Under the pieces are notes generated by a model. The model saw only the letters and a list, made by a program, of their open reading frames with translations, did not search any database and was not told the origin of the DNA. Below, in pieces: positions 38,638 to 55,951 of a stretch of 64,000 bases of DNA. Made by a program: the position numbers and the translations under genes. Source of the DNA: Sphingobacteriia bacterium (GTDB lineage Bacteria > Pseudomonadota > Alphaproteobacteria > Rickettsiales > 33-17); assembly GCA_017304685.1 (NCBI GenBank), contig JAFKLR010000003.1, positions 992,001 through 1,056,000 of the forward strand, in the 5' to 3' direction. How positions within the stretch are numbered: position 1 is the stretch's first letter; every line of letters starts with the position of its first letter.

Positions 38638-38685
38638 CTTTAGTTAGCTTTCTATTTATTGTCTAACCCTGATGAAGGTTACGAA

Positions 38686-39270
38686 ATGAAATTAGAAGAA
38701 TTAAAAGAACAAATAGCCACATATGTAGAAAATGATCCTTTAGCACCTAAAGGCTCTTATCCTATATTACAAATAAGTACAAGCGCAAAATTATTAATTA
38801 TAGGACAGGCGCCAGGTGTAAGAGCGCAAGTTTCAGGGCTTCCTTTTAATGACGCCTCAGGGAATAGACTTAGATCTTGGTTAAATATTTCAAGAGAACA
38901 ATTTTATGATAAAAACCTGGTTGCAATAGTTCCTATGGGTTTTTGCTATCCTGGACCTGATAAATATGGTTATGATAAAGCACCTAATATTCAACATGCA
39001 AAACTTTGGCACAAGCTACTTTTTGATTTAATGCCAAACATTGAACTTACTTTACTAGTTGGCGGATATTCACAAAAATATTATTTAGGCAATAAAGCTA
39101 AAGCAACAATGACTGAAACACTTCACTATTGGCGTGAATATTTACCAAAATATATTGTATTACCCCATCCAAGCTGGCGTAATACCGGTTGGCTTAATAA
39201 ACATACATGGTTTGAAAAGGAATTAATTCCTGAGTTAAGAAAGCGTGTTCAAAAAGCCTTAAGTATATAA
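38686..39270 (+). CDS. Uracil-DNA glycosylase-like family protein
   Basis: A 194-residue member of the UDG-like superfamily. Seen: the motif-A-like LIIGQAPGVRAQVSGLPFND and the C-terminal LPHPSWRNTGW, equivalent to the His-containing DNA-intercalation loop. Other family members excise uracil or have unresolved roles; this subgroup is usually annotated only as UDG family. I chose ATG 38686 because GAAGG sits 7 nt upstream; the frame extends back nine codons to a TTG with no such support. It overlaps the convergent YgjP-like gene by 12 nt. Confidence 0.82.
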   Translation: MKLEELKEQIATYVENDPLAPKGSYPILQISTSAKLLIIGQAPGVRAQVSGLPFNDASGNRLRSWLNISREQFYDKNLVAIVPMGFCYPGPDKYGYDKAPNIQHAKLWHKLLFDLMPNIELTLLVGGYSQKYYLGNKAKATMTETLHYWREYLPKYIVLPHPSWRNTGWLNKHTWFEKELIPELRKRVQKALSI

Positions 39271-39984
39271 TTTCAATTTCTCTTTCTTTGCTTTCCAATC
39301 AGGTATATAAAATTTTAACAAAGCATAAAATTTAGGGCTATGGTTAAAATGATATGTATGACATAACTCATGCATAATAACATATTCGATACATTCAAAA
39401 TGGGTATGAATCAATCTTCTATTTAATGTCATTTCACCTTTTTTTGACATACTGCCCCATCTAGCTTTCATAAGTCTTGTCTTAAGAGAAATTTGAATTT
39501 TAGGTGGCAATACAAAAGTTTGTAACGCCTTTACAATTAATTCATTGAAAACAGTAGTTAGAAAATTTTCATACCAATTAGAAAATAACTTTATAATTTT
39601 TTCCTTATTATAAAAACCAACGTAATCAATATAAAGGTTAGAATTTTCAAACCTAACACTATTTCTAACACTTGAATTAAGCTTTAAATTACATTCTTTA
39701 CCTAATAAAAGAAATACTTCCCCATTTTGAAAATTAATTGGCAAAATTGGGGTTTTAATTTTAAAACTATTTTCTTTTAACTTTTTAAAAATCCAAGCCT
39801 CATACTTATTAATTAAAGATACGACTTCAGTTTGATTAAATCTTTTTGGAACTTTGATAGTTATAGAACTTTTAGAACAAATTGATATAGAATAAGTTTT
39901 TCTACGTGAAGGTAGTAGCTTAAAGTTAATTACCCTTTCACCATTTACCCAATCAAACTTATCTTCTTCTGTTTTAACTAACAT
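39259..39984 (-). CDS. YgjP-like zinc metallopeptidase-fold protein (DUF45)
   Basis: A 241-residue WLM/SprT-like protein. The zinc motif HELCH in YVIMHELCHTYHFNHSPKFY is intact, and KARWGSMSKKGEMTLNRRLI is the conserved DUF45 block before it. The fold resembles archaeal and bacterial minimal zincins; the natural substrate is unsettled. It is downstream of selO on the same strand (16-nt gap), so the two may be cotranscribed. Confidence 0.88.
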   Translation of the reverse strand: MLVKTEEDKFDWVNGERVINFKLLPSRRKTYSISICSKSSITIKVPKRFNQTEVVSLINKYEAWIFKKLKENSFKIKTPILPINFQNGEVFLLLGKECNLKLNSSVRNSVRFENSNLYIDYVGFYNKEKIIKLFSNWYENFLTTVFNELIVKALQTFVLPPKIQISLKTRLMKARWGSMSKKGEMTLNRRLIHTHFECIEYVIMHELCHTYHFNHSPKFYALLKFYIPDWKAKKEKLKLYT

Positions 39985-40000
39985 TAAATAACCTAAAACT

Positions 40001-41464
40001 TTATGAAGAACAAGAAACCCATAAATTTCTTAAATGGCTTGGTGCTTGAGATGCAAAATGATTAAACTCCTCATGTTCATCAAATGGGTTTTGTAAAATA
40101 TTAATTAAATTATCTATAATTGAATAATTACAATTATCTTCGGCTGCTCTAATAGCAGTTTCAGCTATCCAGTTTCTAAAAACATATTTAGGATTTATTT
40201 TATTCATTCTTAATTTTCTTTCTTCATTATTTTGATTTAATACTTTTAACTTTGCAAAATATTTACTTAACCATTCTTTTGCTTTTTCGGAATTATCCAA
40301 TATATTAAGCCAAAAATTATTATCATTTTTTTCATTAACATCTGATAACTTTCTAAACGTTAAAGTATAATCTGCTTTTGATTCTTGCATTATTTCTAAT
40401 AATTCAACCCATAGATTGTTATCTTTAAATTCTTTTTCTACTAAACCTATTTTTTTTAACATTAAATTACTATAAGTCTCACCTAAAATTGTTTTATATC
40501 CCTTTATTATTTCATTAGTTTCTTCAATGGGGATAATATCTTGAAGTGAGTAAGCTAAAGCATATAAGTTCCACATTCCGATTGAGGGTTGTTGGTTAAA
40601 GGCATATCTTCCAGAATGATCTGAATGATTAGCTATCCAATTCTCATCATATTCTTCCATAAACCCGAAAGGTCCATAATCAATTGTAAGCCCTGTAATT
40701 GACATATTATCAGTGTTCATTACACCATGCTGAAATCCTACAGCTTGCCAATTGGCTATCAATTTTGCTGTTCGGCTTACCACTTCTTTAAACCAATCGA
40801 TATAATAATTACCATTAGGAGAAATGTGAAAATATTCTGTGATAACATGATCGATTAATTGTTTTAAAGCTTCTGGTTTACCTGAATAATAAAAATATTC
40901 AAAATGACCAAAACGAATATTTGAACCTGTCGAAATACGGGTAACAATCGCTCCTGGCTCAAGCCCTTCGCGCATTACCGGTTCATTTGTTCCAATTACA
41001 CATAGAGCTCGAGTTGTAGGTATGCTTAAACCAAACATAGCTTCACTACACAAGTATTCTCTAATTGATGAACGCATAACCGCTCTACCATCTGCAAAAC
41101 GTGAATAAGGGGTTTTACCAGAACCTTTTAATTGTATATCTACTAATTCACCATTTTTATTTCTAACTTGCCCAAGTAAAATTGCTCTTCCATCTCCTAA
41201 CTTAGGAACATAGTAACCAAATTGATGCCCCGCATATACCATTGCAAGATTTTCACTTCCCTGTAATTGCTTATTTCCTGCAAAATATTCAACAAAATTT
41301 TTATCTAGGAAAGTAGCTGGATCGAGGTCAATTAATTTTGCTGCTTCTTTATTTGCATGAACTAAAAAAGGTTTTTTAGAGACTTTTTCAGGGAGCATTT
41401 TAGTATAAAAATCTGACGGCAAGCTTGCATACTTATTTTCAAAATTTAAACAAAACTTTTCCAT
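40001..41464 (-). CDS. selO: Protein adenylyltransferase SelO (YdiU/UPF0061)
   Basis: A pseudokinase-fold enzyme that transfers AMP to Ser, Thr or Tyr of target proteins and supports redox homeostasis. Seen: YAGHQFGYYVPKLGDGRAIL, the nucleotide-binding DIQLKGSGKTPYSRFADGRA, RSSIREYLCSEAMFGLSIPT, HGVMNTDNMSITGLTIDYGP with the metal-binding Asn and Asp, and the C-terminal CSS. The terminal cysteine replaces the selenocysteine of eukaryotic SelO, as in most bacteria. Length of 487 is normal. It lies 5 nt downstream of the ndh-2 gene. Confidence 0.93.
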   Translation of the reverse strand: MEKFCLNFENKYASLPSDFYTKMLPEKVSKKPFLVHANKEAAKLIDLDPATFLDKNFVEYFAGNKQLQGSENLAMVYAGHQFGYYVPKLGDGRAILLGQVRNKNGELVDIQLKGSGKTPYSRFADGRAVMRSSIREYLCSEAMFGLSIPTTRALCVIGTNEPVMREGLEPGAIVTRISTGSNIRFGHFEYFYYSGKPEALKQLIDHVITEYFHISPNGNYYIDWFKEVVSRTAKLIANWQAVGFQHGVMNTDNMSITGLTIDYGPFGFMEEYDENWIANHSDHSGRYAFNQQPSIGMWNLYALAYSLQDIIPIEETNEIIKGYKTILGETYSNLMLKKIGLVEKEFKDNNLWVELLEIMQESKADYTLTFRKLSDVNEKNDNNFWLNILDNSEKAKEWLSKYFAKLKVLNQNNEERKLRMNKINPKYVFRNWIAETAIRAAEDNCNYSIIDNLINILQNPFDEHEEFNHFASQAPSHLRNLWVSCSS

Positions 41465-41468
41465 AATA

Positions 41469-42722
41469 CTACTTAATTATTAAACGCTCACTTCGTCTAT
41501 GAGTAATATAATTCCATATCCATTTAATAAAAACGATAATACGATTACGAAACCCTATTAAAAAATATATATGAACAACATCCCATATCAACCAAGCTAA
41601 CCAACCTTTAAGCTTAATCTTACCAAACTCATATATAGCAGAATATCTTCCTATAATAGCTAAATTTCCCCTATTATTATATATAAACTTTTTTGGAGCA
41701 TCTTTATTATTTATTTTAGCAAATATAACTTTAGAAATAAATTTACCTTCTTGGCTTGCAACGGCAGCAAGTCCCGGTAAAGATTCCCCTTTTTTATCTA
41801 AATATTCTGCTGAATCTCCAATAACAAAAATATTTGGATAATTTTCAAGAGAAAAATTAGGTTCTACCTTAATCTTATTTCCATGACTAAATTCAACATC
41901 ATTTCCTAAAATGTCTTTACTTAAGCTTGCTTTAACCCCTGCCGCCCAGATAATTAATTGGGTGTCAATAATTTCTCCATTTTCAAGAATAACTAAATTC
42001 TTGGTTAAATCTTTTACCCTTATACCTAATTTCAATGTAATTCCTTTTCTTTCTAACGAATCAACTGTGAAATCGGATAGTTTCTTATTAAAAGAGGAAA
42101 GAAGTTTTTCAGATGCTTCAATTAAGATAATTTTACTATCATTAGGATTAACATAATTAAATTCGTCTTTCAGAGTCTGTTTAATTAATTCATATAATGA
42201 ACCTGCTAGTTCAACTCCTGTGGGACCACCACCTATTATAGTAAATGTAACAAAATTCTTTTTATCAATTTCTGCTTTTTCAAAAGCTTCAAGGACTTTT
42301 GTTCTTATTAAAAGAGCATCATTAATTGTTTTTAAACTTACTACATATTTGCTCCATTCAGGATGGTTAAAATAATTAACCTCACTTCCTGTTGCAATTA
42401 TAAGATAATCATAATTGATTATCTTTCCGTCCTTTAAACAAATTTCTCTATTTTCTTTATCAACTCTTGTAACCTCTCCCATAATGACATGTACATTTTC
42501 ATATCCTTTAAATTCAGATCTTATTGGTATAGCAATATCAGAGGGTGCAAGATCAGCTGAAGCAACCTGATATAAAAATGGTTGAAAAGTATGATAATTA
42601 TTTTTATCAATTAAAGTAATTTCAATATTTTTATTCTTTTTAAGTTCATGCGCTGCTGTCAGACCTGCAAATCCTGCCCCAATAATTATTATACGAGGTT
42701 GTGTACTAGTTTTAGAATCCAT
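41469..42722 (-). CDS. ndh: Type II NADH dehydrogenase (NDH-2)
   Basis: A single-subunit membrane-associated flavoenzyme passing electrons from NADH to quinone without pumping protons. The FAD motif GAGFAGLTAAHELKK lies near residue 15, followed by YHTFQPFLYQVASADL, the NADH motif GGGPTGVELAGSL and VIGDSAEYLD. The C-terminus (WLAWLIWDVVHIYFLIGFRN) is the amphipathic membrane anchor. Length of 417 is typical. It precedes selO on the same strand; both relate to redox state. Confidence 0.92.
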   Translation of the reverse strand: MDSKTSTQPRIIIIGAGFAGLTAAHELKKNKNIEITLIDKNNYHTFQPFLYQVASADLAPSDIAIPIRSEFKGYENVHVIMGEVTRVDKENREICLKDGKIINYDYLIIATGSEVNYFNHPEWSKYVVSLKTINDALLIRTKVLEAFEKAEIDKKNFVTFTIIGGGPTGVELAGSLYELIKQTLKDEFNYVNPNDSKIILIEASEKLLSSFNKKLSDFTVDSLERKGITLKLGIRVKDLTKNLVILENGEIIDTQLIIWAAGVKASLSKDILGNDVEFSHGNKIKVEPNFSLENYPNIFVIGDSAEYLDKKGESLPGLAAVASQEGKFISKVIFAKINNKDAPKKFIYNNRGNLAIIGRYSAIYEFGKIKLKGWLAWLIWDVVHIYFLIGFRNRIIVFIKWIWNYITHRRSERLIIK

Positions 42723-42743
42723 CCCTCTATCCTTTTCTAAAAA

Positions 42744-43493
42744 TTACTCTTCATCCTGTTTTTCTTCAGCCCAATGTAATGCTTTTTCTAATTGCTCTTC
42801 TGTCATTTCCATAATACTAGTTATACCTAGCCTTCCACACATTCTTCTCACTCCCTCTTCTATTTTCTGGTTAAGAGATAATTGAAGAAGTTTTTCAACT
42901 AATTCATCTTTTCCGCTATTTGCTTCTAACAATTCAGGTTTAACGTTATCTTGCTCATTTACTACATTACTTATTTTAGGATAATCTTGTGCCTCTTCTG
43001 CAGTTATAACTCCTCCTAAAGCGTCCGCAAATTTATCTCGAATTGCAAAACCTCGTGCTCTCATTTGCAGCATTCTATTTGGATATGTAGACCACGGTCC
43101 CGGTTTACCCCATAATCCTGCTTTTTTTGCATCATCAATTGAAAAAGTTACTGTATGTGGCGTTTGACCTTTTCTTTTAATGGTACAGGTAGCTACACCA
43201 TCTTTTATAAATTCCTGAATATCTTCAAATGCAGGATGCGCTTGTACAATTGCCATTAAAGCATCGCCCCAAACACATGGACGACCATTAATAACAGCAA
43301 TATATTGTAATGCTTGTACTGGTTTTAACCCGAGGTCAGTTCCCATTTGAACTGCTACTAAAATATCTCCAGGTCGACCTTGATAAGGTTTAGGTATAAC
43401 TGTACTTTTTGAAATAATTTCTGCAAATTTAATTGCTTCATCTAAATTTTGGGGAATTAACGAAAAACTATTCTTCTTTGTAGCTTTACTCAT
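42744..43493 (-). CDS. RecT-family single-strand annealing recombinase, orphan
   Basis: A phage-type recombinase that anneals complementary single strands. The family core is clear: GDILVAVQMGTDLGLKPVQA, INGRPCVWGDALMAIV, GLWGKPGPWSTYPNRMLQMR and RGFAIRDKFADALGGV. I moved the start to ATG 43493 because GAGGAGG stands 6 nt upstream; the longer frame lacks a site. Functional RecT systems normally pair with a RecE, YqaJ or lambda-type exonuclease, none of which is adjacent, nor are other phage genes. It is likely a domesticated or remnant prophage gene. Confidence 0.88.
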   Translation of the reverse strand: MSKATKKNSFSLIPQNLDEAIKFAEIISKSTVIPKPYQGRPGDILVAVQMGTDLGLKPVQALQYIAVINGRPCVWGDALMAIVQAHPAFEDIQEFIKDGVATCTIKRKGQTPHTVTFSIDDAKKAGLWGKPGPWSTYPNRMLQMRARGFAIRDKFADALGGVITAEEAQDYPKISNVVNEQDNVKPELLEANSGKDELVEKLLQLSLNQKIEEGVRRMCGRLGITSIMEMTEEQLEKALHWAEEKQDEE

Positions 43494-43643
43494 CACTACC
43501 TCCTCAATTAAAAAGGTTATCAACTCTATTAAATTATTATTGATTAGTAATTAATGATTTATAATACTAATATATAGTTAATTATATTTTAATAAAAATT
43601 ACGAGAAATTAAAAGCTTTTTAAAAAAAATAAGTAAAAATTTA

Positions 43644-44729
43644 TTATTTTTCTAAGTAAATATAGACTTCAGCATGATGTGACCATTTAAATTGATCAAT
43701 AATGCAAGTTTTTTTTAACCTAAATCCTGCTTTATATAAATATTTTAAATCCCTTTCTAAGGTCACAGGATTGCAAGAAATTATATGTATAAATTTAACA
43801 TTAGAATTTGAAATTTCTTTAAATTGTGGTTCTGCACCATTTTTAGGTGGATTAATAATTATAGTGTCATAATTATTTAGCTCATTACAGGTAAGAGGAT
43901 GCTTAAAAATATCCCTTAAATTAAAAGTAATGTTATTAATATTATAATTTAAAATTACTTCATTAATAGAAGATTCTACTTTCTCATCGCCTTCAATAGC
44001 CAGAATAGAATGTACGTAGTCGTGAAGCAATAAACTATAAGCTCCAACTCCTGAAAATAAATCGAGTAATTTATTAGATTTATTAAGCGATTCCTTTATT
44101 AAATTTGCAACAATTTGATTCGTATCAAAGGAGGATTGTAGAAAATAGTCATTATATTTTACTAAATATTTTCCTATTTCAATATGATCATTTTCAGTTA
44201 AAACTATTTCAACATCATTATTAGAATTAAATTTTATTTCTCGTAGTTTTTTTAATTTTTCAATAATTCTATCGTGTAAAACTTCACAGCTTTCAATAGA
44301 TATAATATTGTGACTATTTTTACGATAAAATCCTATTTCTCCATCTTTAACATGAAACCTAGCTTTCCTCCGAGACTTTTCTGTAACCGGAATAAATTTT
44401 ATATTAGTATCATTAAATCCAGCCCTTCTTATAACTTCTTTAACTTGATTAACTTTAGTTTTTTGATAAAGTTCAGGGCTTAAATGCTGCATATCGCACC
44501 CACCACATATAGTAAAATATTTACAAGGCGGTGAAACTCTATCTTTACTTGAACAAAGAATATTTATAATTTCAGCTTCAATTATTTTACTATTTTCCTT
44601 GAGTAACTTTACTTCTAATACATCTCCAATTACTGCAAAAGGGACTATAACTTTTTTGTTACGATATAATCCTATACCATCTCCTTTATATCCTTGTTTT
44701 TCAATTGTAATTGTAAATATTTCAGCCAT
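43644..44729 (-). CDS. RNA uracil-5-methyltransferase (RlmD/TrmA family)
   Basis: An S-adenosylmethionine-dependent RNA m5U methyltransferase. An N-terminal TRAM domain (about 1-56, ITIEKQGYKGDGIGLYRNKK) precedes iron-sulphur ligands C59, C69, C75 and C78 (CKYFTICGGC). The methyltransferase domain has LLDLFSGVGAYSLLL for SAM binding, IIINPPKNGA and the catalytic cysteine in ISCNPVTLERDLKYL. The length of 361 is shorter than RlmD of gammaproteobacteria (about 430) but normal for alphaproteobacterial members. The exact target (23S rRNA or tRNA) is not decided. The next gene upstream is the HAD phosphatase (6-nt gap). Confidence 0.87.
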   Translation of the reverse strand: MAEIFTITIEKQGYKGDGIGLYRNKKVIVPFAVIGDVLEVKLLKENSKIIEAEIINILCSSKDRVSPPCKYFTICGGCDMQHLSPELYQKTKVNQVKEVIRRAGFNDTNIKFIPVTEKSRRKARFHVKDGEIGFYRKNSHNIISIESCEVLHDRIIEKLKKLREIKFNSNNDVEIVLTENDHIEIGKYLVKYNDYFLQSSFDTNQIVANLIKESLNKSNKLLDLFSGVGAYSLLLHDYVHSILAIEGDEKVESSINEVILNYNINNITFNLRDIFKHPLTCNELNNYDTIIINPPKNGAEPQFKEISNSNVKFIHIISCNPVTLERDLKYLYKAGFRLKKTCIIDQFKWSHHAEVYIYLEK

Positions 44730-44735
44730 AATATT

Positions 44736-45785
44736 TTAACTAATTGCTCTTAAAATTTTTTCAATTGCTTTTGGCACACCATTATTTATTACTGAAGATA
44801 TTATATAATCAGCTACTGACTTAGCCGCTTCATCTCCATCTTCAGTAATAAATAAATGCGCACCTGGTAAATAATCTTTTATTGAACAATCGTTAGTAGA
44901 TAAATCTGCACTATCTCCAAAAGAAAATATATTTTCACCATTAACCCCTAATTCCTCTGCAAATATCTTTAACCCTAGACCTTTATTTACATAATGATTA
45001 TTAAATAATAATTTTATAGTTACAATATTATCTAATGTCCTAGTTTTAGGTGAAGTAAGCATTGAAAAATGTAACGGATATTCTTGTGGTAAATTTAAAA
45101 GTTTATATAATGCATCTTTAGCGCTTAAGAAATTTTTTTCTTTAGTTATATTAAATGTATTATTAACATAATCTTCAATAAAAGGAATTTCCGCTCTTAA
45201 TATAACTAAATCATTATATAATTTATAAGCTTCTTCATTTTCGTCTGCATAAATAATATTTTTCTTAACTAAATCAAACCAATCTAAAGGTCGGTGATGG
45301 CCTAAGTATTGTTCTAAATTTCTATTTTTGTAAGCGAAATAAATAGCACCATTTTTATGTTTTATATCTAAAAAAGGTATAATATTATTTGAAAACAGTT
45401 CCCAAAGCTTATTTTTTAAACTCTCTTCAATTATACCTTCGTTAATTACCTCAATATTATTATTATATTTAATAACCCTACCAGATAAATATATACCTGG
45501 AAGCTCTCCTAACATATTTTCTAATGGGTTATAACTTGTAATATCTCTACCTGTATTAATAACGGTAATGATGCTTGGGTTAAATTTTAATTTAGATAGT
45601 ACAGTAATAACTTCATCACTAACAAAATGTGAAGATATAGCTCTATTAACTATTGTTCTATCACAATCTAAAGAAAATATGATACGATTATTTGGCTTAA
45701 AACCCTTTTCTAATAGATAGGATTTTAACTCATCTATTGAAATATTTTCTATTAGTTTGTTTTTTATATTCATTCCATTTTTCAA
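44736..45785 (-). CDS. HAD-superfamily phosphatase, third gene of an exported-kinase set
   Basis: A 349-residue haloacid-dehalogenase-fold hydrolase. Motif I is SLDCDRTIV (Asp40, Asp42, Thr44), motif II is VINTGRD (77-80), and motif IV is FSFGDSADLSTND near residue 300. An inserted cap domain fills the middle, as in Cof-type or sugar-phosphate phosphatases. There is no signal peptide, so it should act in the cytosol. Its start overlaps the end of the preceding kinase-like gene by 56 nt (44 nt if the second ATG is used), which indicates tight coupling. The substrate may be what the kinases make; that is inference. Confidence 0.8.
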   Translation of the reverse strand: MKNGMNIKNKLIENISIDELKSYLLEKGFKPNNRIIFSLDCDRTIVNRAISSHFVSDEVITVLSKLKFNPSIITVINTGRDITSYNPLENMLGELPGIYLSGRVIKYNNNIEVINEGIIEESLKNKLWELFSNNIIPFLDIKHKNGAIYFAYKNRNLEQYLGHHRPLDWFDLVKKNIIYADENEEAYKLYNDLVILRAEIPFIEDYVNNTFNITKEKNFLSAKDALYKLLNLPQEYPLHFSMLTSPKTRTLDNIVTIKLLFNNHYVNKGLGLKIFAEELGVNGENIFSFGDSADLSTNDCSIKDYLPGAHLFITEDGDEAAKSVADYIISSVINNGVPKAIEKILRAIS

Positions 45786-46935
45786 TAAAATTTAAATAAC
45801 TATCAATAACACAATATAAAACGATTTCAAATGTTTCTGGATAATGATGTAAATGTCTTTTTAATGTGGAAAGATTTACAATATATTCGGCAGCAGCACT
45901 TCTAATTTCAATTAAATATTTGTCTTCTTTTGTAATTTCAGCAAATTTTTCAATTGCTTTATCATTTATGTATTTTATCACATTAGGTTTAACGTATGAA
46001 TCACTTACAAAAAATTTATTATCTTTAAAGTTCACCCTAATATTTTCTTTTAAATGGTTATAGTTTTCATTGCTAGAATATTTGTCACTTCTTAATTTTA
46101 CAACCCAATGAAACCTTTTTATAAAATTGAGCCATTTACCTAAATCCCATGAAGGATCTTCATTATATTTGATATCCGATAAATCAATTAATTTAATATT
46201 ATAGTTAATATCCATTGTTATATTAGGTGGGTGGAAGTCTCCATGAATCACTCTTTTATTATTAACTTCTGGCAGATCGTTTAGTATTGAAATAACATTT
46301 TTGGTCATTTTTTCAATAGAAGGAATGTAATTATGATGATTATAAATTATGTCTGTTTCCACTATTTCCTTAAGTGAAAGGCCCAATTTATGTATGGTAT
46401 TATCCTTTATTAAATCTTTTATCCTTTCTTCTGCTCTATCTTTAAACATTCGTGTTTTAGAACTCTTGTTATTAACTTGAATGTCATATAGTTCCTTTAA
46501 AGCTAAAAAAACTTTTTCCTGAAATTCTATAAATTCATTGAGATTAAAATCATTATACAGTTTATTCACCGCATCATTTCCTGCATGTGGGTAATTTAAA
46601 TATTCTGAAATTAATATATTATGTGATGATTCTTTATACATTAATGGTATAGAAGTTAAATTAAATGGCTGTAATAAATTTAAATTTTTTACTTCCAAAT
46701 CAACTTTTTCACCGGTTTTAATAAATTTTTTCTTACCATCTGCATATTCAGCTATAAAATAAGAGCATTCAGTTGCTCCAAGCGTACTTACAGGAATTAT
46801 AGTAAACTCTTTTTCCCCATTTTCTTTAAAATAACTAACTATTTGATTTTTATTTAATGGTTTATTATGCGCAAATGCATTAAAAGTTAATAATAATAGG
46901 AAATTAATAATCAGTAAAAGTGTTTTAAATGGCAT
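45730..46935 (-). CDS. APH-fold kinase-like protein with signal peptide (B)
   Basis: A 401-residue protein. A Sec-type signal peptide (1-22, LLLIINFLLLLTFNAFA) is followed by an aminoglycoside-phosphotransferase/choline-kinase-like domain. The catalytic loop is HGDFHPPNI (231-239) and the metal-binding DLSD is at 251-254, in place of DxD/DFG; DPSWDLGKWLNF follows, as in the family. A candidate ATP lysine lies in KKKFIKTGE (68-76). Kinases of this fold are normally cytosolic because they need ATP, so export is odd. It overlaps the upstream kinase gene by 11 nt and the downstream HAD gene by 56 nt. Confidence 0.8.
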   Translation of the reverse strand: MPFKTLLLIINFLLLLTFNAFAHNKPLNKNQIVSYFKENGEKEFTIIPVSTLGATECSYFIAEYADGKKKFIKTGEKVDLEVKNLNLLQPFNLTSIPLMYKESSHNILISEYLNYPHAGNDAVNKLYNDFNLNEFIEFQEKVFLALKELYDIQVNNKSSKTRMFKDRAEERIKDLIKDNTIHKLGLSLKEIVETDIIYNHHNYIPSIEKMTKNVISILNDLPEVNNKRVIHGDFHPPNITMDINYNIKLIDLSDIKYNEDPSWDLGKWLNFIKRFHWVVKLRSDKYSSNENYNHLKENIRVNFKDNKFFVSDSYVKPNVIKYINDKAIEKFAEITKEDKYLIEIRSAAAEYIVNLSTLKRHLHHYPETFEIVLYCVIDSYLNFIEKWNEYKKQTNRKYFNR

Positions 46936-48304
46936 CTAAAAACCTTTCAGTAAAAGGAATATTCTTATTATTTTCTGTAGTTCCTATCACTTTATAAATT
47001 AAACCAAGTAGTTTAACTTGATCATTTGGTTCCATTTCAGTTAAATTATAAACACCTAATAATCTTAATAAAAAGCAAGACTTTAGGTATTCCTCAATTT
47101 CATTTCTAATACTTAAACCATATTTTGCTTCTGCTAATTTTATCACTTTTTCCAAATATAGTTTTATATGTAAATTGGCTATTTCCTTTCTTACTTTATT
47201 TGTTCCAAATTTGTTTACATTATCCATATAAACATATTTTTCGCTAACTATAACCGCTGGATGGATTTCTTTATTACTAAAAGTTTTCATAGCAAAATTA
47301 ATTGCTTTATTTCTTTTATTTAAATAATTGGAATAATATTTTGGATTAATATAATCAGCTAAAATGCTATTATATACTAAATAAATAACTGAATCTCCTA
47401 AAATGCTATTTTCTCCAAATGTTTCCAGATCTATATAATAAAAATTTAACTTATTATTATCTAAAATATCAGTAATAATATTCATTTCATGCCAATCGCC
47501 ATGAGATAATGCAATCAATCTTTTATTAGCTGGATTTAGGTTATTATGTGCTTTTAATATCAGGTCCTCTAAAGTTTCTTTATAAGCGACTCCGTCAATA
47601 ACCCATTTCTTTTTTACTAATTTATGCCAATTAATAATTTCATTATCTAATTTAACCTTACTCATGGTGTAAAAGCTTTCTAATCTACCTTCTACATTAT
47701 CGAGCTTTTGTGTTTGAACCCTGTGAAAATAAAATTCATCATTCTTAGCTTTAGCTATTTTATAATGTAGTGTTTTAGTGGTTAAACCATACATTTGTTC
47801 AAATATTTTTTTAAAAAGCGGATAATAAGATTCTTTTTTATTTTCATTATTTTCAATCTCAGCTATTACGTCAATTAATACACCTTTATCTTTTTTAATT
47901 TCCTCAATATATGGCTGTACTAATAACGATATATCATCAGACAATACTAAAGCTTCCGACTGAATAACTGGTAGATAATGACTTGCTCTACTGCCATTAA
48001 AAAATTCATTTTTTCCTGCTTCTTTTTCAACTAACTTAATAAATTTTTTGCCTTTATTAGTAGTTATAATTGCGCTTATTCCACGTTGCTTAAATATTAC
48101 TTTATAATTATTTTTACTATATGTGTAACCTGCTCGCTTTAGCATAGCATAAATTAAGTTTCTTACTGTAATCTCATCTTGTTGAATTTGTTTGAAAGAA
48201 GAGTCATTACTAAAATGAAATATTGCTGATGGACTTGAGTTAGCATTAATAAATATTAATAGAAAAATAATTAAAATATAACTGCATTTCCTTACATCAA
48301 TCAT
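46925..48304 (-). CDS. APH-fold kinase-like protein with signal peptide (A)
   Basis: A 459-residue protein and the first gene of the overlapping set. The N-terminus is a signal peptide (YILIIFLLIFINANSSPSA, about 9-27). The kinase-like part has a candidate ATP lysine in KGKKFIKLVEKEAG (84-97), the catalytic loop HGDWHEMNI (268-276) and the metal-binding IDLE (291-294), with LGDSVIYLVYNSI after it. The order is that of APH/choline kinases. It is a distant relative of kinase B. Since both keep the HGDxH motif, they look active. Periplasmic or host-side substrates are possible. No known family name is assigned. Confidence 0.78.
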   Translation of the reverse strand: MIDVRKCSYILIIFLLIFINANSSPSAIFHFSNDSSFKQIQQDEITVRNLIYAMLKRAGYTYSKNNYKVIFKQRGISAIITTNKGKKFIKLVEKEAGKNEFFNGSRASHYLPVIQSEALVLSDDISLLVQPYIEEIKKDKGVLIDVIAEIENNENKKESYYPLFKKIFEQMYGLTTKTLHYKIAKAKNDEFYFHRVQTQKLDNVEGRLESFYTMSKVKLDNEIINWHKLVKKKWVIDGVAYKETLEDLILKAHNNLNPANKRLIALSHGDWHEMNIITDILDNNKLNFYYIDLETFGENSILGDSVIYLVYNSILADYINPKYYSNYLNKRNKAINFAMKTFSNKEIHPAVIVSEKYVYMDNVNKFGTNKVRKEIANLHIKLYLEKVIKLAEAKYGLSIRNEIEEYLKSCFLLRLLGVYNLTEMEPNDQVKLLGLIYKVIGTTENNKNIPFTERFLDAI

Positions 48305-48421
48305 TAGAAGCGTCCCGAATAAATAATATATTTTATTAATCTATATTAATATATTATTAAGTGATTTGAATTATATCAACACTTTATTTAAATAATCAGA
48401 AAATCTTTATTTTAACTTATA

Positions 48422-49465
48422 TTATTGAATTTTAGTTTTCTGAGTAATCTCAAAATCCATTTCACCTTCATACCACAACATGTTTAACACTTTATCATTT
48501 AGAGGCTTCATACAAATTGAATCAATATTTTTTATAAAACATTCAGGATTTCCATCACATTCACGAATAAATTGTTTAACCTTGTTTATATTAAGAACTA
48601 AAAACTCTACAATTTCTTTATTTTTAAAATTAAATATGAAGTCTTTTGAAATTTTACAATCTTTTAAAAGTGTTTCTATAGCAATTGATTTGCTAATTAA
48701 ATAATTTACATATTCTTTTTCTGATTTATTAAAGATATATTCAAATTCAATACCGCAATCAATAAGTAAAGTAACATCAAAGGAATGATCAATTAAAAAT
48801 CTCATTTCTTCTTTACTATGTCGTTCGATTAAGAAAGCTGGTGAAACACCACATTTATTTATTAGGATTTTAACTTTATATGCTTTTAAAAGTAAAAGAT
48901 GAAGTTTATCTTTATTTTCTAATGCATAAAAATATCTTATAGGAAAATTACAGTCAAATATTAAGGTTTCAAAATTACTGATATTGTGTAAAATTAGTTC
49001 TTTAATTTCTGGCACAATTTTTTGCCATTTTTGTTTGGAAACGAGCCTTATCGCTATTTCTTCTCTGTAAGATTTTTGTTCTTCTAAACTTTCAATTTTT
49101 CTAGTTAGCTTTTTGTTAAAGATATTTAAAGATTCAATTACTTGAGTAACTCCATTTTTTTCCCAACCTATTTCGTTAATGTGTATATCAAGTTTATTTA
49201 TTACCTCATTAATTACCTGATCAATATATTCAATTATTTCTTTTCTAAGCTCTATAATGTTATTTACAGGAGCTGTAATAAAAACCTGAGGCTGTAGAAT
49301 TATTTTAGCAGTTAAAAAATTTGGATTACGCTTAATATTAAGAATGTTATTTACAAACTGTTTAATTGCTAAAATAATATCCTCTTTATTTTTAGCCTGC
49401 TCTAAGCTTATATCACTTACAAGCGCTTTATGGATCTCTCGCTTTTGAAGAACGTTTAGGGTCAT
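48422..49465 (-). CDS. Hypothetical protein with degenerate C-terminal repeats
   Basis: A 347-residue protein, unrecognised. I start at ATG 49465 because AAGGAG lies 5 nt upstream; the frame extends 12 codons further without a site. The N-terminal half is helical and partly coiled coil (FNKKLTRKIESLEEQKSYRE). From about residue 170 a loose unit of about 33-38 residues repeats, for example MRFLIDHSFDVTLLIDCGIE, then VNYLISKSIAIETLLKDCKI, then VEFLVLNINKVKQFIRECDG. This looks like an ankyrin-like solenoid too degenerate to call. No signal peptide. Confidence 0.6.
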   Translation of the reverse strand: MTLNVLQKREIHKALVSDISLEQAKNKEDIILAIKQFVNNILNIKRNPNFLTAKIILQPQVFITAPVNNIIELRKEIIEYIDQVINEVINKLDIHINEIGWEKNGVTQVIESLNIFNKKLTRKIESLEEQKSYREEIAIRLVSKQKWQKIVPEIKELILHNISNFETLIFDCNFPIRYFYALENKDKLHLLLLKAYKVKILINKCGVSPAFLIERHSKEEMRFLIDHSFDVTLLIDCGIEFEYIFNKSEKEYVNYLISKSIAIETLLKDCKISKDFIFNFKNKEIVEFLVLNINKVKQFIRECDGNPECFIKNIDSICMKPLNDKVLNMLWYEGEMDFEITQKTKIQ

Positions 49466-49616
49466 ATAAACTCCTTCATTTAAAACTTTATAAAAAATCA
49501 ATAAGTTATAAATATTTAATTATTTTTATTATATACATAGTCATTATAAGCATAAGGTATGCCAATTACAGACACTCCTATATAAGTCGTTGAGATATAA
49601 TAAATAATAATTTTAC

Positions 49617-49645
49617 TTGACCTTTTGAGCTTTTTTTTACATTAT
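49617..49645 (+). promoter_or_regulatory. Sigma-70-like promoter of the 66-residue ORF
   Basis: TTGACC (49617-49622) and CATTAT (49640-49645) are spaced by exactly 17 nt, and the ATG follows 35 nt downstream after an AGGGGA ribosome-binding site. Confidence 0.5.
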
Positions 49646-49680
49646 ATAGGCAAAATTTATACCAATTTAGGGGAACTGTA

Positions 49681-49881
49681 ATGGGAAAAGCAAAAACAGC
49701 TAGTAAAAACGACCCGACAACAAGGGAAAAAGCAAAAGATATTTTTTATAATGGCAAAAAAGTGAAACCTGTAAGATTCGTAAGTGAATCAGGAAGCTTT
49801 ATGGCTGCTGAAGATGAAAGCGGAAATGTTATGACTGATGAAGAAGGCAACCCAATTCCTTGGTCAAATATTACAGCTTAA
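49681..49881 (+). CDS. Small hydrophilic hypothetical protein
   Basis: A 66-residue protein with its own promoter, a good Shine-Dalgarno (AGGGGA, 7 nt upstream) and a strong terminator, so it is a real single-gene unit. The N-terminus is lysine-rich (MGKAKTASKNDPTTREKAKD). The rest has short beta-like strands (KKVKPVRFVSESGSFMAA) and ends DEEGNPIPWSNITA. No cysteine, membrane span or signal peptide. I do not recognise it. The compact, isolated, well-regulated unit suggests an abundant structural or regulatory protein, which is inference. Confidence 0.75.
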   Translation: MGKAKTASKNDPTTREKAKDIFYNGKKVKPVRFVSESGSFMAAEDESGNVMTDEEGNPIPWSNITA

Positions 49882-49903
49882 TAGTTATTCTTTTAAGAAT
49901 AAT

Positions 49904-49932
49904 AAAAAACCCCACTCTAAGTGGGGTTTTTT
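49904..49932. terminator. Strong rho-independent terminator
   Basis: AAAAAACCCCAC (49904-49915) and GTGGGGTTTTTT (49921-49932) form a perfect 12-bp stem with a 5-nt loop and T-run. It terminates the 66-residue ORF and, on the other strand, the hypothetical gene ending at 49955. Confidence 0.95.
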
Positions 49933-49954
49933 ATTATCAATTACTTGAGTAAAT

Positions 49955-50785
49955 CTATTTTTCTAAATGAGCAACCTGACATATCGGGTTATAGCTTTTA
50001 TGCCTATGGTCTTCCTCAATTGTTAAAGGAGCTTGTACAATTTCTCTAAATTGCACCTCTTTAGTTCTATATTTTTCCTTAGGATGCAGATCAGTTCTAG
50101 CATTTATAAGAGCTTGATATTCTTGAGCGCTAATATATTCATTCTCACAAATATAATTAATTAACTTATGATTAGAATTCCTAATTGCAACCCTTACTAG
50201 TCGATTCAAGTTACTTTTATCTTGAAGCTCAAAAAACTGATCTGCAGCTTCTTGAAGAAATTCATAAAAATGATTACTTTTAGCAAAATCATCAATTTTT
50301 TCTATTTTTTCTAACTGAACCCATGTTTTTTCGCAAAACTTTACTTCATTTTTCACTAACCACCACGCTTTGTCATAAGCTTCAAAGCTAAGAGCATAAG
50401 CTAAAAGAGAAAAACTAGTATCACTTACATTAAAGGAAAGCCTACGTAAGTTTTTTAAATGCTGCAAATGTTCTTTAGTACCAAATCTAATAATAGTTTT
50501 TAGGGTTTCTGGCTCAGGTGAAAGCTTTCCATTGATAATAGATTCACAAATTCTTTTAACATATTCAGCACTATTTTCTCTATTAAAAGAAGTAGTAACT
50601 TTTTGTTGGTCAATTTTAATAGACCTATTAAGTAATTCATCTATGTGTTTATCTTTTGCAGTCGCGGAAACATGCAAATTAGCTTGTAAAGGGTGTTTTC
50701 TTTCAAAGAAAACACTAGTGGAAGGCTTAATAAATTTCGAATCAAATACTTTTTTCGTAGCTTGCTTAAAAAGATTACTTAGCAT
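49955..50785 (-). CDS. Hypothetical protein with presequence-like N-terminus, paralogue 2
   Basis: A 276-residue helical protein, unrecognised. The first 25 residues (LFKQATKKVFDSKFIKPSTS) are basic with few acids and amphipathic, like a mitochondrial presequence rather than a Sec signal. The body is alpha-helical with an ankyrin-like rhythm (SFSLLAYALSFEAYDKAWWL, LVRVAIRNSNHKLINYICEN). It aligns loosely with the upstream 374-residue protein, so the two look like a tandem duplication. The gap to that gene is 48 nt on the same strand. Confidence 0.6.
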   Translation of the reverse strand: MLSNLFKQATKKVFDSKFIKPSTSVFFERKHPLQANLHVSATAKDKHIDELLNRSIKIDQQKVTTSFNRENSAEYVKRICESIINGKLSPEPETLKTIIRFGTKEHLQHLKNLRRLSFNVSDTSFSLLAYALSFEAYDKAWWLVKNEVKFCEKTWVQLEKIEKIDDFAKSNHFYEFLQEAADQFFELQDKSNLNRLVRVAIRNSNHKLINYICENEYISAQEYQALINARTDLHPKEKYRTKEVQFREIVQAPLTIEEDHRHKSYNPICQVAHLEK

Positions 50786-50833
50786 AGAAACTCCTGAAAA
50801 TTAGAAAAACAATAAATTTTAATTGAAAAACTT

Positions 50834-51958
50834 TTAGCACCCAATTGGAAGATCATGCTTAATATTCTTGTTATTAGCTTGATCATCTAATTTACTACGT
50901 TTTGACTTACTAAATTCTTTTTTATTAGTCATTTCACTGATTAATTTATCAACTAGATTACGTATATATCCTGGTATAATATATTTAGGAATTTCACCAT
51001 TACCTTTTGTACACTCGTTTAAAGTATAATTTTCTATATATCTCCAATATAAAATTCTAGGCATACTATTAATTTTGAAATTAAAATCTGTATGAGCAAT
51101 TTTATTAAATTTTTCTACAGATAGATTTTTAAAAGCTAATGTTAATATATTATAAGCTTTATCATTATTAACTTGCTGCTTACTTACATAATACACTAAT
51201 TCATGTAAAACAGACATTCCTTGCTTATCCACAATAGCAGAATCTAATCCTAATTTTAAAAAATCTTCAACATATTCAGGCTTTAAAGCTTCTTGACCGT
51301 GATTAATCAAATGCCCTACACTCCTACCATCTACTCTAAAATTTATAACTTCCTTTAATAATTCTTTAGAAGAATTATTAAACAGATAATCTAATAATTC
51401 ATAATGGCGTTTATTAAGTGTTATCTGAGTAATAGCAGCAAGAATTTCAATATCATTATTGACTCTGCTTTTTATTAATAACTCATTTAAAAAATTCTTA
51501 AAATATGAATCGTTCATATCTAAGTTACTAATATTTTTAAATATAGTTGTAATAGAATATCTTTCAATACGTGGGTCAATCATATCATGTTTTAACATCA
51601 ACCATAAAACATCATATCTTTTATTAACAGAAGCTTTTAAAATAAGTGAAATTGAGGAATCCCTTGTTCGAGTTAATTTAAAGAGCTTTTCAAATTGTAC
51701 TACTTCCCCTTTTTTACATAATAGATAATCAATAGTTTGCTCAGCTGCTTGTTCTTCAATTTCCCTTGCAATCATTGAATCCATTAGTTTACGACTTTTT
51801 GATGAAATGAAATCTTTTAAACCAAGGTTAGGTTTAGTTGTATGAAAAGCTATTTTTTGCATAGTTACAGGGAAAACAGTAGGCATAGAAGCACTATTAG
51901 ATGCGAAAGTTTTTTCTACTAGTCTAGCAAATATTCTTTTCCCAATTTTACTTAACAT
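50834..51958 (-). CDS. Hypothetical protein with presequence-like N-terminus, paralogue 1
   Basis: A 374-residue protein. The N-terminus (MLSKIGKRIFARLVEKTFAS, then NSASMPTVFPVTMQK) is rich in Arg/Lys/Ser, nearly free of acids and amphipathic, as in mitochondrial presequences. The body contains ankyrin-like helical repeats, for example SISLILKASVNKRYDVLWLM, AAITQITLNKRHYELLDYLF and ESAIVDKQGMSVLHELVYYV-like segments. The C-terminus carries a basic patch KSKRSK near residue 352. Several Rickettsiales interact with host mitochondria, so a secreted, organelle-directed effector is conceivable; nothing in the sequence proves secretion. Confidence 0.6.
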   Translation of the reverse strand: MLSKIGKRIFARLVEKTFASNSASMPTVFPVTMQKIAFHTTKPNLGLKDFISSKSRKLMDSMIAREIEEQAAEQTIDYLLCKKGEVVQFEKLFKLTRTRDSSISLILKASVNKRYDVLWLMLKHDMIDPRIERYSITTIFKNISNLDMNDSYFKNFLNELLIKSRVNNDIEILAAITQITLNKRHYELLDYLFNNSSKELLKEVINFRVDGRSVGHLINHGQEALKPEYVEDFLKLGLDSAIVDKQGMSVLHELVYYVSKQQVNNDKAYNILTLAFKNLSVEKFNKIAHTDFNFKINSMPRILYWRYIENYTLNECTKGNGEIPKYIIPGYIRNLVDKLISEMTNKKEFSKSKRSKLDDQANNKNIKHDLPIGC

Positions 51959-52049
51959 GCTACCTCACAACTTAATTACATTACTTAAAATTTATAAAAT
52001 TAATAATTTAGTACGTCAATTAAATTGTAATCAAAAGTTAAGTAATGAA

Positions 52050-52901
52050 TTAATTTTGTGACTTATTTTTTAATAAAGTTGTTCCTAAAAGAGCGGTAAT
52101 AATTAAACCTGATCCGAGAAATTGCTGGTTACTAGGGATTTCATTAAAAAAGATAAAACCAATTATTACACCAAACACTAATTCAAGATATTGAGAAGCA
52201 ATCCCAAATTTTGGTAATATTCTTAATGATAATGAGAACAATAAAACTGCAAGCGGTGACATTATGCCTATAAATATTATTGGTATAAGGGATACTTTCC
52301 AATTTAAATTTAAATCTGAACCACTTAGTAAAAATAAGGTAACCGCACCAATTAAGTTACAGGTATTTAAAATATATGCGATTTCAAAATCATTATATAC
52401 TTTTTGAAAATATATAATAAGTCGCGTGATAATGACCCAACTCATTATACTTACAAATAAAAATACTAAACCCATTTTACTTTGTAATTGCACAATATCT
52501 TCAGGATTTAAAAATACATAAGTTCCATATATAGCTAATAAAAAGCAGGCATAAAATCCTTTGTTTTTAGAGCCGGGTAATAACATATAAGTTAAAATAG
52601 GTGCGCATGAAAAAAATATTATATACCATGAGACCGGAATTTCTTTTAAACACAAAGCTTGTGTTAAGTTATGCGTTGTAATTGTAAAGAATATAGCGCA
52701 CCAAATCCATAAAGGGATTTGATTAAATTTTCTAAAAGTTCTACGAGTTAAGTAGAATAGTGTAGAAAAGGCTACAATATAGCGCAATAAAAGGAATTGA
52801 TTTATATTTGTTCCGCTTAAAGCTATTTTACAGAGCGTTGGAAGAAAAGCCCATAAAAAAGTAGCAGTTATACCTGCTGTAACACCTTTAAAAACACTCA
52901 T
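52050..52901 (-). CDS. EamA/DMT-family transporter
   Basis: A 283-residue inner-membrane protein with about ten spans arranged as two EamA repeats. Typical features are GITATFLWAFLPTLCKIALS at the start, WIWCAIFFTITTHNLTQALC, and GVIIGFIFFNEIPSNQQFLG with GLIITALLG near the end. Members exchange small metabolites; in Rickettsiales some import S-adenosylmethionine or other host metabolites. The substrate is not readable here. Its start abuts the stop of ispH with no gap, so the two are probably cotranscribed. Confidence 0.88.
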   Translation of the reverse strand: MSVFKGVTAGITATFLWAFLPTLCKIALSGTNINQFLLLRYIVAFSTLFYLTRRTFRKFNQIPLWIWCAIFFTITTHNLTQALCLKEIPVSWYIIFFSCAPILTYMLLPGSKNKGFYACFLLAIYGTYVFLNPEDIVQLQSKMGLVFLFVSIMSWVIITRLIIYFQKVYNDFEIAYILNTCNLIGAVTLFLLSGSDLNLNWKVSLIPIIFIGIMSPLAVLLFSLSLRILPKFGIASQYLELVFGVIIGFIFFNEIPSNQQFLGSGLIITALLGTTLLKNKSQN

Positions 52902-53837
52902 TTACGCTTCAACTAAAAGTTTTTTTGGTAGCTTAAATTTAGTATTCTCAATTACACCTTCCATTGTAGAAACGGAAATAGTACCAGAAATTTCTTTTAT
53001 ACGCTCAATTACTTGTTCGACCAATATTTCAGGAGCAGAAGCACCTGCGGTTATACCTACAGCTTTTTTAACATTGCTAAACCATTCAGAAACTATACTT
53101 TCAGGACCTGAAATTAAATAGCTTCTAACCCCCATTTCTTCTCCTAGATCGCGAAGTCTATTAGAATTTGAGCTATTTTTAGCTCCTATTACAAGAATCA
53201 AATCCACCATATTTGACAAATCTTTTACTGCATTTTGGCGGTTTTGAGTAGCGTAACAAATGTCTTTTAAATTAGGGCCAATTATATTTGGAAACTTGTT
53301 TTTTAAAGCTTCAATAATTTCTTTTGTCTCATCAACACTTAAGGTAGTTTGAGTTACATAACCAACTTTATTGGGATCATTAATTTGAATTTTTTCCACA
53401 TCACTTACTGACGATACAAGGGTAACAGGTTTATTTACTCTACCTGCAGTACCTATCACTTCAGGATGACCTTCATGACCGATAAGGATAATATCATACC
53501 CTTTAGCTTCTAAATTTTGAGCTTCTCTATGTACTTTGGTTACCAAAGGGCAAGTTGCATCTATAACATCAAGGTTACGAATTTCAGCGCCATTTTCAAC
53601 TTCTTCAGCTACACCATGGGCACTAAAAATTGTTACAGCGCCTTCAGGAATTTCTGCCAATTCATCGACAAATATTGCTCCTTTTGAACGTAAACTTTCC
53701 ACAACATATTTATTGTGAACAATCTCGTGTCTAACATAAACTGGAGGTCCATATTTTTTTAAAGCTTGTTCAACAATATCAATTGCTCTTTCAACACCTG
53801 CGCAAAAACCTCTAGGCTGCGCCAATATTACTTTCAT
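52902..53837 (-). CDS. ispH: 4-hydroxy-3-methylbut-2-enyl diphosphate reductase
   Basis: The last MEP-pathway enzyme, an iron-sulphur protein making IPP and DMAPP from HMBPP. The three cluster cysteines are Cys12 ([13 protein letters not shown]), Cys96 ([13 protein letters not shown]) and Cys194 ([10 protein letters not shown]). The substrate-binding residues His41, His74, His124 and Glu126 are present. Length of 311 is standard. With dxs at 26.5 kb it shows an active MEP route. The gap to zapE is 1 nt. Confidence 0.96.
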
Positions 53838-53838
53838 T

Positions 53839-54975
53839 TTACGCTCCTTTTAAAAAATCAGAAGCCGAATTTTTCTTAATATAACTTTCTGATTGCATTT
53901 CGTTAAGCCTTGAAATAGTCCTTTGGAATTCAAAAGCCCCTTTTCCATCTAAATAAAGCTCTTCAGGCTTTGTATAAGCATTACAAATTAATAGCACATT
54001 ATGATTATACATTTGATCAATAAGCATCATAAATCTTTTAGCTTCATTGTGCATTTCTAAGGACATTTTAGGGATATTATTAATAATTATCAAGGCAAAT
54101 TTCTTACAAATTTCTATATAATCTAGCTGTGATAACGGATTTTCACATAATTCTTTGAAATCTGTTAAAAGAATATTTTTATATGTTTTTCTTAATTTAA
54201 GTTCTCTACCCATAACTTCTATAGCTACCGGTTCAAATTCTAAATCTTTAAATACATTTGCAACAATATCATTTAATTTAGTTTCATTTTGTACAAAATA
54301 TACTTCTTTTAAGGCTTTTATCTTATTCATTCTATAATCTTCAGGACTTGTAAGATTATATACTTCCATTTTCATAAGTAATTGCTCAATAAAATTCCGA
54401 AAATGCTCTTTTCCATAGTCTTGCTTGTATAAATCTTCTGGTTCACGGTTAGACGTTACTACGAAAACCATACCTAATTTATAGAATTCTGCAAAAACTC
54501 TTGAAAGTATCATGGCGTCAGAAACATCTAAAAGATGCAATTCATCTAAGCAAATTATATCAAAATCTTTACAAAATTTCTCGGCTAAAGCTTGTATAGG
54601 ATCTGTGATTCCGGTATTTCTATCTTTACTCTTATTTCTAATTACATGAAGGTTTTCATGAATAATTTTTATAAAATCATGAAAATGTATAAATAACTTT
54701 CTGTCAGTCTTTACAGATTCAAAAAAAAGCTTCATTAAAAAGGTCTTACCTTTACCTACTCCTCCATAAATATATAGACCCTTAGGAGATTCAATGCTTA
54801 CGCTAAAAACTTTTCCTAAAATTTTATTAGTAATGCTTGTTTTTCTTTTTTGAAAATGGTCAAAGCGTTTTAGGAGATTATCTAAGGCAATGCTTAGATT
54901 TTCCTGCTCTTTATCAAAATTATAATTATTTTGTTTTAAATAATTTTTATATAAATTTCTAATTAATTCTGGCAT
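53839..54975 (-). CDS. zapE: AFG1-like ATPase ZapE
   Basis: A 378-residue AAA-type ATPase that in E. coli associates with the divisome and in mitochondria (AFG1/LACE1) aids protein quality control. Walker A is [17 protein letters not shown] (71-79 core), Walker B is [18 protein letters not shown], and [14 protein letters not shown] is the sensor region; [15 protein letters not shown] ends the chain. Length is normal. It is the first gene of zapE-ispH-EamA and is divergent from holB. Confidence 0.92.
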
Positions 54976-55040
54976 TTTTATGATTTATTGTACAATATAT
55001 TCTTCACTCCAATTAATAATATATTTAAAGTAAATCACCA

Positions 55041-55949
55041 ATGCAAATTTTAGGTCATAAACAACAAATTGATTTAGTTTTAAACAGAATTACTGGCGAA
55101 AGACCTATTAATAGCTGGCTATTTACAGGCCCAAAGGGTATTGGAAAAGCTACAGCAGCAAAGTTTATTGCAACTAAAGTTTTAAAAACTACCAATATAA
55201 TTCACCCTGAAATTCTCATTATAGATTCTGATTCTATTCAAAATAAACTTATACCTATTGAAAAAGTAAGAGAAGTTGGGGAGTTTGTGAAACTTACTAG
55301 TACAAACTCTGGATTCAAAATTATTATTATTGATGACATTGATTCAATAAGTATAAATGCTGCTAATGCACTTTTAAAGGTAGTGGAAGAACCAAAAACT
55401 AACGTTTTTATTTTTCTCATAAGCCATAATGTGCATAAAGTAATTAAAACTATTAAATCACGTTGTGCGATTATAAAATTTTTAGGACTTTCTTCTGATT
55501 TATGTACTCAGGTTTTAGACTCAACCCCAAATCTTCCTTCTAGTAATGAAATTATTGATTTAATGACTATAACCGATAATTGTCCGGGTAAAGTTGTAGA
55601 ATTCATTAATACAAAAGCTTTAGATTTTTATTACAAATTAATTAGTATTATTCTAAATAATTCAAAAATTTTAGATATTAAATCGCTTCCAGAAATAAAA
55701 CATGAAACTGGCTGGTTTTTAATTACAAGATTAATTAATATTTGTTTAAAATTACATTTAAATGTTCCAGTTACTCTTACCCATTTTGAGGAAGAAAATT
55801 TACCGAAAATAGCTAGTAACCTTGATAAATTTAATTTATTTAATTTATCTAATGAAGCTAATATATTACTAAATGATTTACAAAGAATTAATATGGATTA
55901 TAATCAAGTTATTTTCTTAGTAACAAAGATGTTTGAAAGGAAACAATAG
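55041..55949 (+). CDS. holB: DNA polymerase III delta' subunit
   Basis: A clamp-loader subunit that helps open the beta clamp. Seen: GHKQQIDLVLNRITGERPIN, a degenerate P-loop GPKGIGKATAAKFIA, IIIIDDIDSISINAANALLK (DEAD-box-like Walker B) and the SRC motif in IKSRCAI. The cysteine cluster of the zinc module is missing, as in some alphaproteobacterial delta' subunits. Length of 302 is normal. It reads into metG with 2 nt between them. Confidence 0.88.
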   Translation: MQILGHKQQIDLVLNRITGERPINSWLFTGPKGIGKATAAKFIATKVLKTTNIIHPEILIIDSDSIQNKLIPIEKVREVGEFVKLTSTNSGFKIIIIDDIDSISINAANALLKVVEEPKTNVFIFLISHNVHKVIKTIKSRCAIIKFLGLSSDLCTQVLDSTPNLPSSNEIIDLMTITDNCPGKVVEFINTKALDFYYKLISIILNNSKILDIKSLPEIKHETGWFLITRLINICLKLHLNVPVTLTHFEEENLPKIASNLDKFNLFNLSNEANILLNDLQRINMDYNQVIFLVTKMFERKQ

Positions 55950-55951
55950 AT

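Follow-up and report, generated by a model that had tools for sequence, protein, structure and literature searches.

The window analysed in this work is a whole 64,000-nucleotide stretch of contig JAFKLR010000003.1 (forward-strand positions 992,001 to 1,056,000; assembly GCA_017304685.1) of Sphingobacteriia bacterium, assigned to the order Rickettsiales by its GTDB lineage. It contains three overlapping genes that encode two kinase-like proteins, designated here K1 and K2, and a phosphatase-family protein of HAD type (HAD). The kinases and the phosphatase are predicted to belong together and to lie, in this genome, on opposite sides of the membrane. The features of the locus are as follows:

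46925..48304, minus strand: K1, remote APH-type kinase-like protein of 459 aa (K90/E100; HGDWHEMN, residues 268-275; D292, in IDLE)
48233..48304, minus strand: signal-peptide-like segment of K1, about residues 1-24 (hydropathy rule)
45730..46935, minus strand: K2, APH/choline-kinase-fold protein of 401 aa (K73/E81; HGDFHPPN, residues 231-238; D251)
46870..46935, minus strand: signal-peptide-like segment of K2, residues 1-22, with an AFA cleavage-like site (hydropathy rule)
44736..45785, minus strand: HAD-IIB phosphatase-family protein with intact motifs and no signal-like segment
46925..46935, minus strand: overlap of K1 end and K2 start, 11 nt
45730..45785, minus strand: overlap of K2 end and HAD start, 56 nt with the TTG start, 44 nt with ATG 45773
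43644..44729, minus strand: rlmD-like 23S rRNA methyltransferase gene, 6 nt downstream of the HAD gene

The initial annotation of this locus, made from its sequence, described the two overlaps, a HGD(F/W)H-x2-N motif followed by Asp in both kinases, and the coupling of the kinase genes to that of HAD; all of these were confirmed, HAD being complete in its motifs. Translation of HAD from TTG 45785 gives 349 aa, and that from ATG 45773 gives 345 aa. The latter start is the better guess, since the database protein P0020 comprises 345 aa and several relatives start at the same alignment column. A Shine-Dalgarno-like GAAAGG is present a few bases upstream of the K2 ATG, and no clear stretch of this kind precedes either HAD start.

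In the case of K2, the HGD motif is accompanied by a Lys/Glu pair and a metal-binding Asp, the structure model has the APH/choline kinase fold, and the match to PF01636 (APH) passes the cut-off by 0.2 bits (23.4 vs. 23.2 bits). PF01636 is also matched at E<=0.01 by 13 of the 14 rows of the K2 family. The only PADLOC match of K2, to PD-T4-6 (0.0018), is weak and confined to the kinase-motif region, and it was not regarded as a sign of a defence role; a weak match in PHROGs (phrog_4098, 4.2e-5) concerns a family whose function is unknown there. BLASTP aligns K1 with K2 over 68 columns near HGD (6e-4), and a comparison of their profiles detects no relationship (probability 3.4). Phosphotransfer with ATP or GTP is putative for both.

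K1 possesses the same set of catalytic motifs, with no significant match in Pfam, no match to PF01636 at E<=1 and none in PHROGs. Its APH-type fold, proposed in the initial annotation together with that of K2, is supported much less firmly than the latter, which has a fold model behind it; in K1, the motifs and a remote profile match suggest such a fold, and amicoumacin kinase structures are among the fold matches. One K1 relative (P0003) is devoid of both Asp residues. A search of plasmids with K1 by tblastn yielded 89 weak records, from Sinorhizobium (51), Rhizobium (27), Klebsiella (9), Agrobacterium (1), and Pantoea (1). Three plasmid regions were inspected, one of them devoid of annotation. 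In a single comparison, hhalign matched the Agrobacterium protein P0035 to the K1 profile along 345 columns (probability 98, E 3e-13). Its N-terminus, judged by eye, is not hydrophobic, and its gene is clustered with genes for an ABC transporter, a histidinol-dehydrogenase-like protein, an alcohol dehydrogenase, a HutC-type repressor, and an alpha-hydroxy acid oxidase. The K1-like protein of G046, a genome of the same order (L006; E 7.5e-14, partial), also lacks a signal-like segment by eye. As the P0035 and G046 relatives have no hydrophobic N-terminus and the former is encoded in a catabolic-looking cluster, K1 seems to have branched off, as an exported form, from a family that is cytosolic and probably metabolic. 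Two further K1-like genes of rhizobial megaplasmids (L031:5437-6729 and L032:5647-6867), annotated as hypothetical, encode no signal-like N-terminus and are clustered with genes of a HisD-like dehydrogenase, an ABC transporter, and a HutC-type regulator. The K1-like gene of G046 (L006:1009-2421) contains an in-frame insert that resembles, by eye, a translated mobile palindromic repeat.

Another K1 relative, P0005, encoded on a 2685-base contig, carries, in one chain with a hydrophobic N-terminus, both a K1-like and a histidine phosphatase domain (PF00300, 2.9e-42). The K1-like domain matches APH at 1.2e-6 and passes the PF01636 cut-off with 28.9 bits, and the phosphatase domain carries the RHG and HGG motifs, which we take to be catalytic. 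P0005 is an apparent bifunctional exported kinase/phosphatase, in which, unlike in the set described here, the phosphatase would travel along with the kinase.

HAD resembles HAD-IIB enzymes of the YidA/BT4131 type in exceeding the cut-offs of PF08282 (3e-12; 47.3 vs. 20.9 bits) and TIGR01484 (52.7 vs. 41.8 bits) and in having motifs I-IV, the positions of which are conserved in all 15 family proteins. It differs from them in its score below the cut-offs of the Cof-type model TIGR00099 (51.6 vs. 137 bits) and of the SPP model TIGR01482, and in its recurrence with K2. A weak PHROGs match (phrog_4901, 5.7e-6) is to a hydrolase.

The recurrence of K2 with HAD follows from separate searches that found 13 relatives of the former and 14 of the latter, of each of which the longest contig was compared. 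In five cases on either side (5/13 and 5/14) these contigs are identical in size, namely, 2260404, 24386, 8851, 3821, and 3360 bases; contigs of equal size were taken as the same contigs, and the K2-HAD link there rests on this assumption. On the 3360-base contig the two genes must be close to each other, since together they would fill about two thirds of it. The K1 relative P0002 is also encoded on a contig of 2260404 bases, and with relatives of all three proteins on contigs of the same size, the gene neighbourhood appears to be kept in some relative. The distance matrices of six K2-HAD pairs correlate with r of 0.90; out of 720 relabellings, 4 reach this value, and one of these is the true pairing. 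The HAD tree places the protein of the window next to P0021 as its sister (support 90/94), and on the K2 tree the shortest path leads from K2 to P0008, through a fork without resolution. The five shared contig sizes and the co-divergence mark K2 and HAD as the predicted conserved core of the set.

Export signals were predicted with an ad hoc rule, distinct from SignalP, that demands a hydrophobic 10-mer of mean hydropathy of at least 2.3 and a positive N-region. The rule is passed by K1 (3.95, charge +1) and K2 (3.11, charge +1), and failed by HAD (0.63), in the family of which none of 15 proteins has a signal-like segment. The signal-like N-termini that the initial annotation ascribed to both kinases are thus supported, and they are credible because they recur in relatives. 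Within the K2 family (14 rows), K2, P0008, P0011, P0012, and P0013 pass; three further members were counted as likely, two being hydrophobic without the charge (P0016 and P0017) and one slightly under the threshold (P0015, 2.18); P0007, P0009, P0010, P0014, and P0018 clearly fail, and P0019 has no N-terminus. Among the five rows of the K1 family, K1 and P0002 pass, P0005 is hydrophobic without the charge, P0003 fails, and P0004 has no N-terminus. With the three likely proteins counted in, the signal label requires two changes on the K2 tree, a number as low as in 11 of 500 shuffles; the label seems to be clustered, a single clade not being established. Both K1 and K2 look like versions of cytosolic enzymes exported presumably by the Sec pathway.

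Conservation across Rickettsiales, for which the initial annotation had proposed a neighbourhood search, was not borne out in a same-order sample of 343 genomes, including the own genome of the set. Among the 342 others, K1 has one distant partial match (G046) and K2 five weak partial ones (E 4.6e-5 to 3.1e-4), four around HGD and one (G158) over the N-terminal part; HAD has none at E<=1e-15. Among 385 genomes of the class and 398 of the phylum, which are overlapping samples, K2 is found at E<=1e-8 only in its own genome. The only genome-contig match of the K2 profile, L004 of Terriglobia, was rejected as a chance HGDFHPPN within an unrelated-looking open reading frame (ORF). Plasmids gave no match for K2 or HAD, phages none for P0008, and viral contigs no relative with the K2, K1, and HAD profiles. 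The lack of a close match of any of the three proteins in the other same-order genomes suggests that the set was acquired horizontally. Base composition is uninformative in this respect, the GC content of the three genes being 0.246-0.253 (window, 0.295) and their GC3 0.129-0.164 (mean 0.173, standard deviation 0.023). The insertion cannot be dated, because a comparison of 29 ORFs of the window with the rlmD surroundings of two family relatives revealed shared rlmD and a UDG gene in L029, and rlmD alone in L030.

The rlmD-like gene is probably a mere neighbour of the set, and no terminator-like site separates it from the HAD gene. Terminator-like sites are more common than in shuffled sequences (5 vs. 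1.0), with one on the minus strand inside K2 (46779), and promoter-like sites are rarer (34 vs. 49.9); RNA folding upstream of K1 corresponds to chance expectation (z -0.08). The neighbours that gave matches within 38659-57469 are UDG, YgjP-like, SelO, NDH2, RecT-like, RlmD, EamA, LytB, AFG1, DNA polymerase III delta', and MetRS; the remaining ones are without a match. Three ORFs upstream of K1 (48422-49501, 49955-50785, and 50834-51958) have no Pfam match passing the cut-off. A chromosomal gene of a RecT-like annealing protein (42744-43523; phrog_561, 2.7e-49) lies beside NDH2 and rlmD, and a gene of SelO protein adenylyltransferase (40001-41464; PF02696, 3.9e-143) a few kilobases downstream of the set.

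No description of this layout was found among the listed titles and abstracts of open-licence papers, to which the search was limited, and the set may represent known enzyme kinds, i.e., APH-type kinases and a HAD phosphatase, in a new arrangement. The APH/choline kinase/maltokinase superfamily (PF01636) shares with K2 the fold, the Lys-Glu pair, HGDxHxxN, and the metal Asp, and with K1 the motif and the remote profile match; K1 and K2 differ from it in their signal-peptide-like N-termini, in forming families of their own, and in the HAD partner, and K1 also in lacking a significant Pfam match. LicA choline kinase is similar in its fold (4r77/4r7b among the K2 matches). The lic operons contain genes of a cytidylyltransferase and a choline transporter, neither of which was recognised among the neighbours of the set. 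AmiN and AmiO, as is presumed of the proteins described here, are a kinase and a phosphatase acting on one compound. The kinase of that pair is cytosolic and the phosphatase extracellular, the reverse of the topology predicted here.

APH-fold kinases depend on a nucleotide and usually work in the cytosol. We favour, tentatively and with a probability of about 0.42, a reading in which K1 and K2 are exported small-molecule kinases that use probably host-derived ATP, and HAD is a cytosolic enzyme that removes the phosphate. Outside the cytoplasm, K1 and K2 would transfer phosphate to a small hydroxylated metabolite, and HAD would take that phosphate off on the cytosolic side, either freeing the compound once its phosphorylated form has been taken up or guarding the cell from the product of a not-yet-exported kinase. 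K2 and HAD, which recur together as the core, would act on one substrate; K1, which accompanies them on a single further contig, may use this compound or one related to it. In this reading we infer Sec export, catalysis, the shared substrate, its small-molecule nature, and the ATP source. Of the kinase-phosphatase cycle proposed in the initial annotation, the partnership gains from the recurrent K2-HAD link and from the P0005 fusion; a single exported compartment for both activities finds no support, because no HAD family member has a signal-like segment. Host ATP, suggested there as well, is plausibly at hand, with two TLC-family genes in the own genome and none in any of 14 control genomes, and its use may be conjectured. 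Background on Tlc and on tlc genes in Rickettsiales is given in parts of PMC5615194 and PMC10847448, respectively.

When a rule nearly identical to the above hydropathy rule, with a limit on later segments, was applied to 48 of the window's 50 ORFs with a length of 100 aa or more, 10 were flagged, K1 and K2 included, and at least one of them wrongly (an NDH2-like Rossmann protein), so that a single pass is weak evidence of a signal peptide. Alternatively, all three proteins may be confined to the cytosol or to the cytosolic side of the inner membrane; the N-terminal segments would then serve as anchors or be inefficient signals, and the three genes would encode an ordinary sugar or aminoalcohol kinase-phosphatase pair. 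In the cytosol ATP is assured, HAD has no signal-like segment, and neither have some K2 relatives and the K1 relatives L006 and rhizobial P0035. We nevertheless regard this as unlikely, though it comes next in our ranking, since both kinases, several K2 relatives of 32-40% identity to K2, and the K1 relative P0002 have signal-like N-termini, that of K2 with its AFA cleavage-like site. The own genome contains nine places that match the APH profile, K2 included; six of the seven others with a complete N-terminus (L013-L018) are not hydrophobic there, the seventh (L021) being so (2.57). The remaining one of the nine, an APH-type gene (L019, G000:C8:49-219), is cut by a contig end.

Somewhat less probable is an effector role, in which K1 and K2, once exported, would modify a host protein, peptide or lipid, and HAD would either act as a safeguard in the cytosol or be a metabolic passenger. 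HAD-IIB enzymes are generally known to act on small phosphates. The K2 relatives P0009 and P0010, which share contig sizes with HADs, and P0014, labelled Dojkabacteria, lack a signal-like segment; this is more in keeping with metabolism than with a target in the host. An atypical kinase with a phosphatase partner in an intracellular bacterium is found in Legionella, where, according to parts of PMC5199130 and PMC8605245, MavQ and SidP form an effector kinase-phosphatase pair; HopBF1 is dealt with in a part of PMC9950578. Both MavQ and SidP are effectors acting on PI-lipid, and SidP was likened to CX5R phosphatases, unlike the HAD described here, which has no signal-like segment. It is very improbable that K1 and K2 disarm an antimicrobial on its way to the cytosol, with HAD recycling or correcting, as in an inside-out AmiN/AmiO. 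The APH fold is indeed common to antibiotic kinases, and AmiN/AmiO act in amicoumacin self-resistance and activation, according to a part of PMC7235827. However, among the fold matches of K2, antibiotic kinases do not surpass metabolic ones, there are no biosynthetic genes among the scanned neighbours of the set, and the phosphatase would reverse the protection.

Exported small-molecule kinases with a cytosolic phosphatase, the reading that we prefer, can be extended to a phosphate relay split by the membrane, in which the kinases of an energy-parasitic bacterium would tag a host metabolite with host ATP beyond the inner membrane and the internal phosphatase would release it. This extension is doubtful; if it is true, host ATP would power metabolite capture with no bacterial ATP spent. 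If two kinases with signal peptides are kept together with one cytosolic phosphatase, the set would hint at phosphorylation in the periplasm or beyond it at the expense of host ATP, and at a new route for host-associated bacteria to get or alter the metabolites of their hosts.
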